Below are positions 46,561 through 51,958 of a DNA stretch of 64,000 nucleotides, one piece after another. This DNA comes from Microbispora corallina (GTDB taxonomy: Bacteria; Actinomycetota; Actinomycetes; Streptosporangiales; Streptosporangiaceae): assembly GCF_016863035.1 (NCBI RefSeq), contig NZ_BOOC01000003.1:186001-250000 (forward strand), given 5' to 3'. Position numbers and translations under genes: made by a program. A model generated the notes under the pieces. The model ran no database searches and had not been told where the DNA came from. It saw only the letters and a program-made list of their open reading frames with translations. Positions within the stretch are counted from its first letter, which is position 1. Each line of letters starts with the position of its first letter.

Positions 46561-49197
46561 TCACCGGGCGGCGGGCCGCAGGCGCAGGGCGCCGTCGCCG
46601 AAGCAGACGAAGCCGGCCGCCCCGGTCTTGCCGGCCGCGACGCCCAGGGCCTCCGCGGCGGCGCGCCCGTCCGCGAGCAGGCCGTGGAACAGCGTCATGA
46701 GCGCGAACGCCTCGTCGTCGCGCACCGGGACCACACCGGCGACCACGCACGACGACCCCCGGTCGAGGAAGGCCCCCGCCAGGCCGAGGGCCGCGCCGTC
46801 CACGGGCGCGTGGGCCATCCCGGCGTCGCACGCCGACAGCACGACCAGCCGCGGGACCGCCTCCGCCCGGAGCAGGTCGTAGCCCATGAGCGGGCCGTCG
46901 TCCAGCGTGATCCGCGACAGCATCGGGCTGCGCGGCGAGAACATGCCGTGCGCGGCGACGTGCAGCGCGTCCGCGTGCTCCAGCGCGGCCATCACCTCCT
47001 GCCGCGTCGCCCCGACGCGCCGTCCCCCGGGATGGGCGGCGGCCACCGCGTCGGCCTCGGCGGCGGCGTGCCGCAGCCCCGGCCCCGCGAGGGCGACGAC
47101 CGCGGCCGGTGAGCGCGCCGGACCGACCTGGGGCCCGCTCGTCTCCGTCGCGGGCCAAGGGGGCGATTCGTTCGCCGCGGAGCCCCAGGAGGTCGGACGG
47201 CTCCCGGTGCCCGGTCCGGCCCCCGGCCTGAGCCAGGGGACGGCGTCCGCCGCCACCGACACGGGCCGGCCGGCCAAGGAGGGCAGCAGAGGCCAGGGCA
47301 GCGTGCACAGGGCGCCGGTCGGCACGATCGTCACCGGCCCGTCGTCCAGGTCGAGGGGCTCCAGCAGCATCAGGTCCAGCGCCGGAAGCTCCCGCGCCAG
47401 GCCGTCCTCGTCCCCGGCGTCCCGCAGACAGCGGCGGCGCAGCCCGTACCGGACCCGGACCGTCGCCTCCACGGCCGCCGCGTACGACCCGAGCGACCGC
47501 AGCGCGCACTCCCGTCGGCCGGCCGTGACCGCCCACAGGTCGTCGCCTCGGCGGACCAGTTCGACCAGCGTGCCGAATGTGCCGCCGAGCGCGGCCGGGC
47601 CGGCGAGGGGCGGCGGGGGAGTGCCGCGCACGACCGACCGCCATCGCTCCGCCCACGTGAGCACCGTCCAGGGGTCCCCGCTCTCCAGGGCCAGGTCGAG
47701 CCCGAAGGCCGCCAGGTCCTCCGCCGGTCGCGCCGCGTGCGCCCGTACGTCGGGGCTCTCCGCGTCCAGGCCGGCGGCGGCCGCGCGGATGCCCGCGCCC
47801 GCGGCGGCGAGGGCCGCCTCCCGGTCTCCGTCGAGCCGGTGGAGCAGGGCACGGGCGTGCTGCCGCACGACGGGCCGTACACCCGGAGTCGGAGCGCCGG
47901 CCCCGGACGCCTGCGCGACGTCACCGGCGATGGCCGCGGCCGGCCCGGCCGGCGTCACCTCCGCGGATGAACCGAACGGCACGTCCCCGGCGTCCGGTCC
48001 GGATCCGGGGGAGAGCCCGGAGGACGACGCGAGCCGGAGAAGGTGGGCACGCGCGAGGCCGGGACGGCCGAGGCGCACGGCCGCGGCGGCGGCGGTGAGC
48101 CGGAGCGCCGCCGACTCGGCGGGCCAGCCGTGGGCGGCCAGGTCGTCGGCGCACGCCAGAAGCTCGTGGAGCGTCCCGTCATCCGGGGGCTCCTGCTGCA
48201 GGCGGGCCCGCAGGATCACCTCGGCCGCCAGCGGGATCCACGCGTGCCTGCCCTGTTCCGCCAGCTCGTCGAGCGCCGTCTCCGCGGACGACCGGGCGAG
48301 GCGGGCGTCCCCCGCGAGGAGCCCGGCCTGCGCGAGCAGCAGCCGGGCGCCGGGGACGGCGGCGTGCGCGCCTCCGGCGACCAGATCGGGTACGGCCTGT
48401 TCGAGCAGCGTCCGCGCCTCGACCGGCAGCCGGGCGGCCACGAGGGCCTCGGCGAAGTCCGTCCGCATCGCGGCCAGCCGTTCCGGGTAGCCGAACAGCG
48501 CCGACTCCGCCGCCTGGTACCTCTCGAACGCGGCCGCGATGTCGCCCCGCCTGGCCGCGACGAACGGCAGGTTGCCCTCGGCCAGCATGGCGACGTGGTC
48601 GAGCCCGGCGGCCCGGGCCGTGGCGGCGCAGCGGGACAGGTCCTCCTCCGCCGTGCCGTACTCCTGCAGGTAGGTGCGGGCGACGCCGCGGTTGAGCAGC
48701 CCGCCCGCCAGGAACCGCGGGTCCTCCTCCAGGAGGCCCACCGCCCGGTCGCAGTGCCGCACCGCATCGCGGTGCCGGCCCAGCAGGATCAGGGCGGCCG
48801 ACCGCTGGACGTCGAGGCGGGCGAGGTCGGTCCCGGACAGATCCCGCTCCGCCAGGTCGGCGAGCGCGAGCCCGCCCTCCGGGTCGCCCAGCTGCGCCCG
48901 CACCGTGACCAGGGACATCCGCGCCTGCGCGACCCGCGGCGGGAAGGCCGCGCCGGCCGCGACGGCCTCCTCGAGCCGCTCCGCGGCCAGTTCGAGGTCG
49001 CCCAGTTCGCGCGCCGCGAGGGCCGAGGCCCGCAACGCGACGGAGACCGCCTCCTGCCCGTCCCGTACGGCCGCGGCCTCGGCGAGGACGTCCCGCGCCT
49101 CCGACAGCGCCAGCCGGGGATCCGACCCCGACAGCCGTACGGCGGACTCGGCCCGCGCGACGAGGACGGCGGCCGGGGGCGGGTCAGGGGCGGACAT
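46561..49197 (-). CDS. TPR-CHAT cysteine protease
   Basis: The 878-residue protein has tetratricopeptide-type repeats from residue 10 to about 400 (ARSSAETALDELAEQGRHAW, RRGDIAAAFERYQAAESALF). A disordered linker, more helices, and a CHAT (caspase HetF associated with TPRs) protease domain at about 660-878 follow. The catalytic pair is intact: His750 in HVAAHGMFSP and Cys790 in VLSACDAGMA. Separase-like CHAT enzymes cleave specific proteins when the TPR arm receives a signal. ATG 49197 lies inside the end of the upstream gene (14-bp overlap), so translation is coupled. It is the last of four genes: subtilase, sigma factor, beta-domain protein, CHAT. No signal peptide is present. Confidence 0.88.
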   Translation of the reverse strand: MSAPDPPPAAVLVARAESAVRLSGSDPRLALSEARDVLAEAAAVRDGQEAVSVALRASALAARELGDLELAAERLEEAVAAGAAFPPRVAQARMSLVTVRAQLGDPEGGLALADLAERDLSGTDLARLDVQRSAALILLGRHRDAVRHCDRAVGLLEEDPRFLAGGLLNRGVARTYLQEYGTAEEDLSRCAATARAAGLDHVAMLAEGNLPFVAARRGDIAAAFERYQAAESALFGYPERLAAMRTDFAEALVAARLPVEARTLLEQAVPDLVAGGAHAAVPGARLLLAQAGLLAGDARLARSSAETALDELAEQGRHAWIPLAAEVILRARLQQEPPDDGTLHELLACADDLAAHGWPAESAALRLTAAAAAVRLGRPGLARAHLLRLASSSGLSPGSGPDAGDVPFGSSAEVTPAGPAAAIAGDVAQASGAGAPTPGVRPVVRQHARALLHRLDGDREAALAAAGAGIRAAAAGLDAESPDVRAHAARPAEDLAAFGLDLALESGDPWTVLTWAERWRSVVRGTPPPPLAGPAALGGTFGTLVELVRRGDDLWAVTAGRRECALRSLGSYAAAVEATVRVRYGLRRRCLRDAGDEDGLARELPALDLMLLEPLDLDDGPVTIVPTGALCTLPWPLLPSLAGRPVSVAADAVPWLRPGAGPGTGSRPTSWGSAANESPPWPATETSGPQVGPARSPAAVVALAGPGLRHAAAEADAVAAAHPGGRRVGATRQEVMAALEHADALHVAAHGMFSPRSPMLSRITLDDGPLMGYDLLRAEAVPRLVVLSACDAGMAHAPVDGAALGLAGAFLDRGSSCVVAGVVPVRDDEAFALMTLFHGLLADGRAAAEALGVAAGKTGAAGFVCFGDGALRLRPAAR

Positions 49198-49693
49198 GCA
49201 CCCAGCGCGTGAACACGGGCGGCAGCCCCGGGCGGTGGCACACGACGCTGACCCATCCCGGCGGCAGGCCCGAGACGGCGAAGTGCCCGCTGCCCGAGGG
49301 CGAGCGGACCTTGCCGACGTGCGGGGTGCGCACCTCCACCCGGGCGTCCGGCCCAGGCCAGGGCGAGATCTGCCCCGCCACCTCCAGGCGGCCCTCGACG
49401 ACGGACGCCTCGACGTCGATCGTGAGACCGGCCGCCGTGAACCGGTGGAAGCCCGGCGCGTCCGGTGCGGCCTCGGCGGCGCCGAGCCGTGGTCCCGCGG
49501 AGCCGTCCGCGCCCTGCCGCGGAAGATCGGCGGACCGGGCGCCGGGCGGGACGGCGACGGCGACCTCGTCGGCCGCGACACCCCCGGGCAGCCGCAGCGC
49601 GAAGGCGGCCCGGGCGGCGGCGGAGACCCGTCCCGGCACCGGATCGGCTCCGGCCCCCATCCGCAGCGCGGCGAGCAGGTACTCGTCCCTCAC
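49184..49693 (-). CDS. Small protein with carboxypeptidase-regulatory-like beta domain, sigma/CHAT-linked
   Basis: The 169-residue product starts with an amphipathic helix (RDEYLLAALRMG) and an Ala/Pro linker. It continues with a beta-rich half (about 90-165), with the spaced strands LEVAGQISPWPGPDARVEV, GHFAVSGLPPGWVSVVC and VFTRWVHV. The strand spacing and FAVSGLPPGWV turn resemble the carboxypeptidase regulatory (transthyretin-like) domain. Its GTG overlaps the sigma-factor stop by four bases, and its end overlaps the CHAT start by 14, so the three proteins are made together. There is no signal peptide. By position it may be the anti-sigma factor, the CHAT substrate or both; that is inference. 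No named family was recognised. Confidence 0.65.
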   Translation of the reverse strand: MRDEYLLAALRMGAGADPVPGRVSAAARAAFALRLPGGVAADEVAVAVPPGARSADLPRQGADGSAGPRLGAAEAAPDAPGFHRFTAAGLTIDVEASVVEGRLEVAGQISPWPGPDARVEVRTPHVGKVRSPSGSGHFAVSGLPPGWVSVVCHRPGLPPVFTRWVHVRP

Positions 49694-50217
49694 GAGCCGG
49701 CCTCCTCTTCCACCAGCGCCCGCAGCCGCGCCATGCACCGGGCGCGGGTGGGGCCGATGCTGCCCACCGGCACATCCAGCCGTACGGCGATCTGGGCATA
49801 CCGGGCCTCGGGATGGAGCACCCACAGGCGGATCAGCGACCGGCAGGGCTCGCCGAGCAGGTCGAGCCGCGCCCAGACCTGCCGGCCGAAGTCGGCGTCC
49901 ACGACGGCCGCGGCGGGGTCGGGGGCGGCGGCCTCCGGCACGTCCGCGTCCGCCGGGGTCTCGCCGCGGGCCCTGCGGCTGAGCCGGGCGGCCTCGTGGC
50001 GGGTGGTGGTGACGAGCCAGGCGCCGACGGCGCCGGGGTCGCGGATGGTGTCGGCGCGCTCGACCATCTTCAGCCACGCGCCCTGGACGGCGTCGGCCGC
50101 GTCGGCGGCGCTCAGCCCGAAGGCGCGGGCGACCGCCCACATCCTGCCGTCGAACCGTGCGACGAGGTCCTCCCAGGCGGCCTGGTCGAGGTCGGCGAGA
50201 GAGTTGCGTTCTGGCAT
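49690..50217 (-). CDS. ECF-type RNA polymerase sigma factor without recognised anti-sigma partner
   Basis: The 175-residue protein has the two-domain ECF layout. Region 2 (about 15-75, WEDLVARFDGRMWAVARAFG and DAADAVQGAWLKMV) and region 4 (about 115-170, YAQIAVRLDVPVGSIGPTRA with CMARLRAL) are joined by an acidic Asp/Ala/Pro linker. It would direct polymerase to a small regulon. No gene with the usual membrane anti-sigma or ZAS zinc motif is adjacent; instead it lies between a subtilase and a protease pair. ATG 50217 is chosen, with GTG 50259 possible; no ribosome site is clear for either, so coupling to the subtilase gene 44 bp upstream is likely. Confidence 0.85.
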   Translation of the reverse strand: MPERNSLADLDQAAWEDLVARFDGRMWAVARAFGLSAADAADAVQGAWLKMVERADTIRDPGAVGAWLVTTTRHEAARLSRRARGETPADADVPEAAAPDPAAAVVDADFGRQVWARLDLLGEPCRSLIRLWVLHPEARYAQIAVRLDVPVGSIGPTRARCMARLRALVEEEAGS

Positions 50218-50260
50218 GTGACTCTGCGCGTTCGGAGGGGGACAACGGGTGACACGCACC

Positions 50261-51268
50261 CTATCGATCGACGGCGACCGCGACGCCGAGATCGGGAATT
50301 TGCCGGCCCTCCCGCAGCAGGCGTCGTACGGCCTCGGCGGGCGGGACGTCGCGGCACAGCCGCGCGAGGGCCCCCGTGACGCCCGCCGCCGCGAACGACG
50401 TGCCGCTCCACCGCGCGTAGCCGTGGAACTCGGCGTGATCGAGGAAGCTGCTCGTCAGGCCGACGCCGGGGGCGCAGGCGTCGACCCAGGGGCCGTACGC
50501 CGAGAAGGAGGCCCTGCCGTCCCCGTCGAGCGCCGCCACGGCGACGACCCGCGGGAGCGCGGCCGGCCAGAAGGGACGCGACGAGGCGGTGTTGCCCGCG
50601 CAGGCGACGACGGCGGGAAAGGCCGCCAGCGTCTCCGCCAGCCCCACCGGCGGCCGGTCGTCGAAGGTGTGGCCGCCGAGCGACAGGTTCACCACGTGGA
50701 CCCGCTCGCGGCGCAGCCGGGCGAGCGCCCGCAGCAGCGCGGCCTCGTCGCTCACCCCGTGGCTGTCGAGGAGCCGCACGGCGCGCAGCGCCACGCCGGG
50801 GGCCCGGCGCAGGATCAGCCCGGCGACGAACGTGCCGTGGCCCGCCTGCTCGTCCAGCACGCCGTCGCCGTCGGCGTCCGGGGTGTCGGCCACCTCGTCG
50901 CGGTACCAGCGCGCCATCCAGGGGTGCGGCGCGAGGCCCGTGTCGAGCACGGCGACCGTGACGTCCCACGGCTCACCCGGTTCGTACGGCACGGCCCGCG
51001 CGGGCACCGGCATGCCGCCGGGGCCGCCGAACAGCAGCGGCTGCCCGAGGAGGACGTGGTTGGGCGACGCGACGTGCCCGCGGTCGCGGAGGGCCGCGGT
51101 GAGGTCGACGACGTCCACGCCGGGCGACAGCCGGACGTGGTGGACGCCCCCGGCGGCGGCCGTCTCGCGGGCCCAGCGGCCGACGGCCTCGGGGGAGGAG
51201 GTGAGCAACTCGTCCGGCCGGATGAGCGCGGGCCGGCCGGGGAGGGGTTCGACGAGCCGACCGCGCAT
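50261..51268 (-). CDS. Cytoplasmic S8 subtilisin-like protease
   Basis: The 335-residue protein has the complete subtilase triad: Asp109 in VAVLDTGL, His144 in GHGTFVAG and Ser291 in GTSFAAAGVTG. The oxyanion Asn lies in CAGNTASSRP. Residues 40-90 look like a short inhibitor I9-type propeptide (VHHVRLSPGVDVVDLT). No signal peptide or membrane anchor exists, so it should act inside the cell, unlike most actinomycete subtilases. ATG 51268 has aggaagg upstream. It is the first of a compact four-gene unit with an ECF sigma factor and a CHAT protease, and may process one of those partners. Confidence 0.9.
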   Translation of the reverse strand: MRGRLVEPLPGRPALIRPDELLTSSPEAVGRWARETAAAGGVHHVRLSPGVDVVDLTAALRDRGHVASPNHVLLGQPLLFGGPGGMPVPARAVPYEPGEPWDVTVAVLDTGLAPHPWMARWYRDEVADTPDADGDGVLDEQAGHGTFVAGLILRRAPGVALRAVRLLDSHGVSDEAALLRALARLRRERVHVVNLSLGGHTFDDRPPVGLAETLAAFPAVVACAGNTASSRPFWPAALPRVVAVAALDGDGRASFSAYGPWVDACAPGVGLTSSFLDHAEFHGYARWSGTSFAAAGVTGALARLCRDVPPAEAVRRLLREGRQIPDLGVAVAVDR

Positions 51269-51460: not shown

Positions 51461-51958
51461 GTGGCTGCTGCTCGTGGCGTCCTGTACGTCCACTCGGCTC
51501 AGCCTGCGCTGTGCCCGCACATCGAGTGGGCCGTCGCAGGCGTTATTGGCGTACCCGTCGATCTGACGTGGACGGCCCAGCCCGCCGCGCCCGGAACGCT
51601 CCGGGCCCAGGCGGAGTGGGAGGGCCGCCCCGGCACGGCCGCGGCGATCACGTCGTCTCTCATGGGCTGGCAGCGCATCCGCTTCGAGATCACCGAGGAC
51701 GCCTCACCCGGCGTCGACGGCTCCCGGCACGCCTACACCCCGTCGCTCGGCGCCTTCACGGCCGTGGTCGGCGCGAACGGCGACATCCTCGTGCCCGAGG
51801 ACCGGCTACGCAACGTGATGCTGATGGCCGCCCAGGGCCGCGTCGTGCTGGAGGACGAGCTCGACCGGCTGCTCGGCAAGCAGTGGGACGAGGAGCTGGA
51901 GTCCTTCCGGTACGCCGGGGAGGGCGCCCCCGTCCGCTGGCTGCACGCCGCCGTCTGA
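51461..51958 (+). CDS. DUF3145 family protein
   Basis: The 165-residue protein belongs to the actinobacterial DUF3145 family, with the hallmark VLYVHSAQPALCPHIEWAVAG, a WEGRPGTAAAITSSLMGWQ core and the end FRYAGEGAPVRWLHAAV. It is soluble and compact, of unknown function, and in many actinomycetes lies beside the fatty-acid synthase II genes, as here. GTG 51461 has gggagg five bases upstream. It is divergent from the subtilase gene across 192 bp and is followed by a possible terminator hairpin. Confidence 0.87.
   Translation: MAAARGVLYVHSAQPALCPHIEWAVAGVIGVPVDLTWTAQPAAPGTLRAQAEWEGRPGTAAAITSSLMGWQRIRFEITEDASPGVDGSRHAYTPSLGAFTAVVGANGDILVPEDRLRNVMLMAAQGRVVLEDELDRLLGKQWDEELESFRYAGEGAPVRWLHAAV

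Follow-up and report, generated by a model that had tools for sequence, protein, structure and literature searches.

A conserved four-gene cassette of subtilase, ECF sigma factor, beta protein and TPR-CHAT protease in Actinomycetes: a candidate CRISPR-free protease-to-sigma switch

Within the 64,000-nt stretch of the Microbispora corallina genome analysed here (the window), four genes on the minus strand form a compact cassette. It encodes a subtilase (S8 family, 335 aa, 50261..51268; Peptidase_S8 Pfam match 1.1e-25), an ECF sigma factor (175 aa, 49690..50217), a 169-aa "beta protein" with a GTG start (49184..49693) and an 878-aa TPR-CHAT protease of the separase/Csx29-like type (46561..49197). 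The gene positions given in the first-pass annotation, with a gap of 43 bp followed by overlaps of 4 bp and 14 bp, are exact to the base, and the catalytic residues lie where it had placed them: D109, H144 and S291 in the subtilase (minus-strand codons 50942-50944, 50837-50839 and 50396-50398) and H750 and C790 in the TPR-CHAT protein (46948-46950 and 46828-46830, also minus strand). The subtilase thus has an S8 domain with the Asp/His/Ser triad; by eye, it has no evident signal peptide and its N-terminus is prodomain-like. The sigma factor consists of the sigma2 and sigma4 regions only, as in ECF proteins (TIGR02937 52.7 bits vs a cut-off of 42.9; Sigma70_r2 1.6e-10, above its cut-off), and solved SigH and SigE chains are among the matches of its family profile, which spans the SigH and RpoE chains. 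The CHAT domain with its His/Cys dyad covers residues 606-854 (46636..47382, minus strand; Pfam CHAT 3.1e-24, 86.3 bits vs a cut-off of 24). Profile searches of Pfam and NCBIfam found no named family for the beta protein, the only Pfam match being a sub-threshold one to CarboxypepD_reg (E 0.0041, 17.9 bits, cut-off 32.3); its description below is based on an AlphaFold2 model and on family alignments. No membrane part of the cassette is evident by eye.

The cassette recurs widely, and this recurrence is not due to chance. In the bacterial family of the window, matches to the beta protein at E<=0.001 are present in 104 of 150 genomes and 50 of 68 genera, and 225 of the 229 beta ORFs in the fetched loci (a redundant set) have a same-strand sigma gene no more than 1.5 kb away. 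Linkage of the four genes in related genomes was among the expectations raised at the outset, and it is borne out by annotated neighbourhoods of 54 loci (including three duplicates), 40 loci and 20 further loci, in which the partners are alike. The catalytic residues proved to be retained in the homologs too, the CHAT dyad in 71/71 scorable sequences (4 more rows, truncated where a contig or stretch ends, were left out) and the subtilase triad in 63/63, the window included. The surroundings are likewise stable: the divergent neighbour, a DUF3145 gene (51662..51958, plus strand; Pfam DUF3145 1.5e-39), belongs to one cluster in 48 of the 54 window-family loci (three duplicates), and in more than half of the loci the cassette lies between fatty-acid genes and a group of rhodanese, phosphodiesterase and DUF5998 genes (clusters present in 31 to 40 of 54). 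Among the neighbours in the window itself, six were named by Pfam, and fabF and acpP by eye. The window locus is thus a syntenic housekeeping neighbourhood.

This location bears on the phage-response function suggested in the first-pass annotation, which finds no support here: the synteny with DUF3145 and fatty-acid genes is that of a core locus, and none of the 10 window neighbours scanned has a PADLOC match at E<=1e-5. The family is also nearly absent from plasmid and phage collections. With queries from a Streptomyces-type locus (L116), the beta protein retrieved 0 records from the plasmid collection, and the CHAT protein gave partial matches to 2 plasmid records (one of 11.8 Mb) and 1 phage record. 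Neither defence neighbours nor residence on mobile elements therefore marks the cassette. CHAT proteases and subtilases do occur in defence systems, and weak PADLOC matches to BovA, subtilase and IetS were obtained, which reflect shared domains; nevertheless, a defence role is unlikely, and we regard an anti-phage circuit as very improbable.

Across 296 genomes of the class, the beta protein is found in 89 (E<=1e-4) and the TPR-CHAT protein in 102 (E<=1e-30). Compared by hand, both are present in 87 of these genomes, beta alone in two (G231, G382) and CHAT alone in 15. For 12 of these 15 (all except G294, G370 and G406) the surrounding stretch was fetched, and a broader profile detected a beta protein in 9; of the other stretches, G374 contains a sigma gene and an unrecognised gene of 217 aa, G229 only CHAT, and G263 a different CHAT. 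At locus L166, genes for sigma, an unrecognised 217-aa protein, CHAT and subtilase stand in a row, and a far-diverged beta protein is possible there. A close subtilase (E<=1e-49, a cut chosen post hoc from the list, in which the top-scoring CHAT-negative genome, G190, reaches 2.7e-46) occurs in 85 genomes, all of them CHAT-positive, and in 0 of the 194 CHAT-negative ones; at E<=1e-30 the subtilase is missing from 16 of the 28 CHAT-positive genomes of the window's family. Looking beyond the class, elsewhere in the phylum, we found the beta family in 35 of 296 genomes, with class members counted in. At seven beta loci of other classes, of which at most about 1.5 kb of flank was read, a sigma gene is present in 5 and part of a CHAT gene in 2. 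Nine of the phylum-wide beta-profile matches, all in family f56 (e.g. G470, G561, G600), begin only at position 43 or later and may belong to a different protein with a common sandwich domain.

The gene order is far less constant than the gene content. Across Actinomycetes the cassette genes are arranged in at least seven different orders or orientations among 109 loci, and the cassette is sometimes divided into two unlinked pairs, sigma with beta and CHAT with subtilase, as in family f19 (L118 with L167, L119 with L168). At L167 and L168 one CHAT gene stands beside two subtilase genes, away from the sigma-beta pair. Since the association survives such reshuffling, we take it as a strong sign that the genes work together, and the two pairs that stay intact point to two working halves, a regulator with its inhibitor and a protease with a protease. 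At 50 of 87 loci the sigma and beta genes share 4 bp, and the pair is kept where the proteases have split off. The genome of M. corallina itself contains a second, divergent cassette of the class-wide type (L115, contig C37, 16600-31000; CHAT on one strand, then subtilase, sigma and beta on the other), whose proteins are 31-38% identical to those of the window; it is followed by five genes of no assigned kind, one of them hemopexin-like by eye. No cas gene was recognised among the cassette neighbours (10 via PADLOC, others by eye). The four parts constitute a genuine and conserved system that, judged by its neighbours, is independent of CRISPR.

The AlphaFold2 model of the beta protein (pLDDT 87.2) has two N-terminal helices (residues 3-14 and 21-32), a linker at about 45-80 and an Ig-like sandwich (81-169); the linker is modelled with low confidence (average pLDDT 60 for residues 51-60). 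The most conserved residue of the whole protein lies in this linker: an arginine (Arg53 in the window, codon 49535..49537, minus strand) within the consensus G-[VAL]-R-[SGA], present in 174 of 175 non-redundant sigma-beta pairs. The sole exception, L135, has arginines within a longer linker. In these 175 pairs the arginine lies 11 to 25 residues from the helices and 5 to 146 from the sandwich, and by eye it is retained in 7/7 beta proteins of other classes. Because separase-type enzymes cut after Arg, it is a plausible cleavage site, and we predict that the beta protein is cut after Arg53; the residue may instead have a structural role.

The putative protease for such a cut is the TPR-CHAT protein, whose model (AlphaFold2, pLDDT 86.8) resembles Csx29 and separase in fold. 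By profile it does not reach the level of Csx29 itself: the NCBIfam Csx29 score is 19.6 bits against a cut-off of 300, over the CHAT part only. Two nearly invariant acidic residues, E714 (71/72 scorable rows) and D827 (70/71), are candidates for the S1 pocket, and in our reading of the model, made without a residue alignment, they appear to occupy places comparable to acidic residues of separase. According to the cited sections, P1 Arg is listed for separase, clostripain, paracaspase, metacaspase and gingipain R (PMC4357240), the P1 Arg after which separase cuts is invariant and is held in place by residues including D2070 (PMC12609080), and in separases helix 1, which follows strand 1, begins with an acidic residue (PMC4626109). 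As far as these accounts go, the eukaryotic separase/SCC1 pair offers the same combination of a helical-repeat arm and a caspase-fold protease, with SCC1 cut after an invariant P1 Arg, but the separase substrate is cohesin rather than a sigma inhibitor (PMC12609080, PMC4626109). Another difference is that the ExxR motif, as given for separase substrates in the sections consulted, is not seen around Arg53.

Among the closest known systems is Craspase (type III-E; Csx29, Csx30, CASP-sigma), which in the published description combines TPRs and a separase-like CHAT protease with an ECF-type sigma factor, and in which the two-domain Csx30, likened here to the proposed role of the beta protein, acts as the sigma inhibitor and the substrate of the protease (PMC10028731). 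The part of that description at hand places the Csx30 cut in a loop of the C-terminal domain, outside the linker, whereas the cut predicted here falls in the interdomain linker; it also reports no essential substrate residue for cleavage by Csx29, so a CHAT protease need not want Arg (PMC10028731). The actinobacterial cassette further differs in its extra subtilase and in the beta protein, with its 169 aa and its Ig-like domain, and a search with beta profile A1 did not find a Csx30 chain among solved structures, although the two may be remotely related. Of the proposal that Csx29-like logic operates here without CRISPR, the part concerning the protease is backed by the fold and by the nearly invariant linker arginine, while binding of sigma by beta and its cleavage stand as predictions.

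From the sequence data we predict an anti-sigma role for the beta protein, with binding to the sigma factor. Overlap by 4 bp is the usual pattern of sigma/anti-sigma genes. Direct coupling analysis (DCA) gave a weak signal, with a pair between sigma4 residue L128 and beta residue D17 ranking second overall; in a tree test the same pair ranked 15 of 22,820 (p 1e-4 before correction), and in two-state coding it showed 3 shared branches (p 0.002). The beta residues of the top 100 inter-protein DCA pairs fall in the N-terminus (41), the linker (16) and the sandwich (43). This lack of a clear focus on the helices would suit a beta protein that serves as an adaptor or ligand-binding subunit of sigma or CHAT and regulates through binding, not cutting, as would the Ig-like/CarboxypepD_reg-type sandwich and the fact that profile searches found no match to known anti-sigma profiles. 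HxxxCxxC, the motif of zinc anti-sigma (ZAS) factors, is absent from the beta sequence as well. Against an adaptor stand the 4-bp pairing and the position of the most conserved residue in the linker, and we consider such a role decidedly unlikely.

Upstream of subtilase- or sigma-led operons in the class-wide loci we found a common promoter-like element, TGTATCAG-N14-GCTC, N14 being the usual spacing. A regular expression derived from a word count, and chosen on the same upstream regions on which it was counted, matched 16/60 cassette upstreams in the forward and 2/60 in the reverse direction, compared with 5/212 and 9/212 controls, some of the matching controls sharing an intergenic region with a cassette. 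A weight matrix trained on the same 60 sequences exceeded 12 bits in 26/60 forward, 1 reverse and 7/212 control regions; the second M. corallina cassette, which belongs to that training set, carries the element in weaker form (19.6 bits). The element is absent upstream of 45 window-family operons and of the window cassette. We infer that the cassette sigma factor reads the element in the class-wide relatives.

The same element could be read differently, with sigma and beta as a sigma/anti-sigma pair and the subtilase and CHAT protein as outputs, i.e. executors driven by sigma (e.g. in lysis or differentiation). The element does point at subtilase- or sigma-led operons, and sigma-beta and CHAT-subtilase are separable pairs, but CHAT genes lack the element in their own direction (0/33 class loci), the window-type operon lacks it as well, and the near-invariant arginine of the beta linker would be left unexplained. 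Proteases as outputs are therefore an unlikely solution.

An exact search of 17 genomes with the element led to a LuxR-type gene, AbsR2 according to NCBIfam, that lies divergent from the AbsR1 gene. Over the cut-off, AbsR2 is present in 8 of 296 genomes, each time adjoining the CHAT gene of the cassette, with weaker relatives in 5 more, and the element lies directly upstream of absR2 in 8/8 and of the weaker relatives in 3/5. Six of these 13 genes were found through the element (G325, G264, G203, G341, G357, G058); among those found independently of it, which give the fairer count, 5/7 have it (G273, G291, G389, G067, G000) and two do not (G044, G097). One of the five is in the genome of the window (L268; G000 contig C2, ~237029), on a contig other than that of either cassette: an AbsR2-like gene with the element (17.5 bits) at its likely start, the gene call probably beginning too early, upstream of the element. 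Since the element stands upstream of absR2 itself, it might be an AbsR2 operator instead of a promoter for the cassette sigma factor. This is improbable, because AbsR2 or AbsR2-like genes are present in only 13/296 genomes (E<=1e-60), the element precedes cassettes in genomes outside those 13 (L120, L137, L146, L174), and its mostly fixed spacing and its distance of about 9 bases from the absR2 start resemble those of a -35/-10 pair. The targets of a freed sigma factor in the class-wide relatives appear to be the subtilase-sigma-beta operon and absR2, which in Streptomyces coelicolor is a regulator of antibiotic synthesis. The presence of AbsR2, together with an 84% match of the L116 CHAT protein to a Streptomyces plasmid record, suggests that family f18 corresponds to Streptomyces.

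Taken together, we slightly favour the view that the cassette is a cytosolic, CRISPR-free switch in which the CHAT protease cuts the anti-sigma beta protein, with the subtilase taking part in that step, and sigma is set free. The N-terminal helices of beta would hold the ECF sigma factor, its Ig-like domain serving as a handle; a signal, perhaps read by the TPR arm, would activate the separase-like CHAT protease, which would cut after Arg53. The subtilase could then finish the sigma-bound fragment, or could be activated by, or activate, the CHAT protein, and the freed sigma factor would transcribe its targets. Two of the results above count against this model: 16 of the 28 CHAT-positive genomes of the window's family lack the subtilase at E<=1e-30, and the window cassette lacks the element. 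Stepwise proteolysis is familiar from the RseA/RsiW type, in which membrane proteases act on a membrane anti-sigma factor to free an ECF sigma factor; unlike these, the cassette has no membrane part evident by eye. A cytosolic protease that cuts an anti-sigma factor and frees an ECF sigma factor is described for CalpL/CalpT/CalpS of type III CRISPR, although CalpL, in the account cited, is a Lon-SAVED protease triggered by cyclic oligoadenylate, and CHAT and subtilase are absent (PMC11417357). In EACC2-caspase/ECF sigma/DUF1822 neighbourhoods a caspase-fold protease adjoins an ECF sigma factor and a caspase-to-sigma link was proposed, but the protease architecture is another one, and the cited passages do not describe a subtilase of the cassette type or a beta protein (PMC8195603).

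It is possible, and we suggest it tentatively, that the cassette represents an old actinobacterial separase-type switch, in which CHAT cleaves an anti-sigma factor behind an invariant arginine much as separase does with cohesin, that the sigma factor so released controls the absR locus in one branch, and that Craspase is a CRISPR-captured version of the same logic. If so, protease-triggered release of sigma by a separase-like enzyme would be a widespread form of chromosomal signalling in Actinomycetes and not a speciality of CRISPR systems. The proposal names a cut site, a promoter and a target (absR2), all of them predictions, and with it the questions of where the Csx29/Csx30/sigma module came from and how absR is controlled would become open to direct tests.
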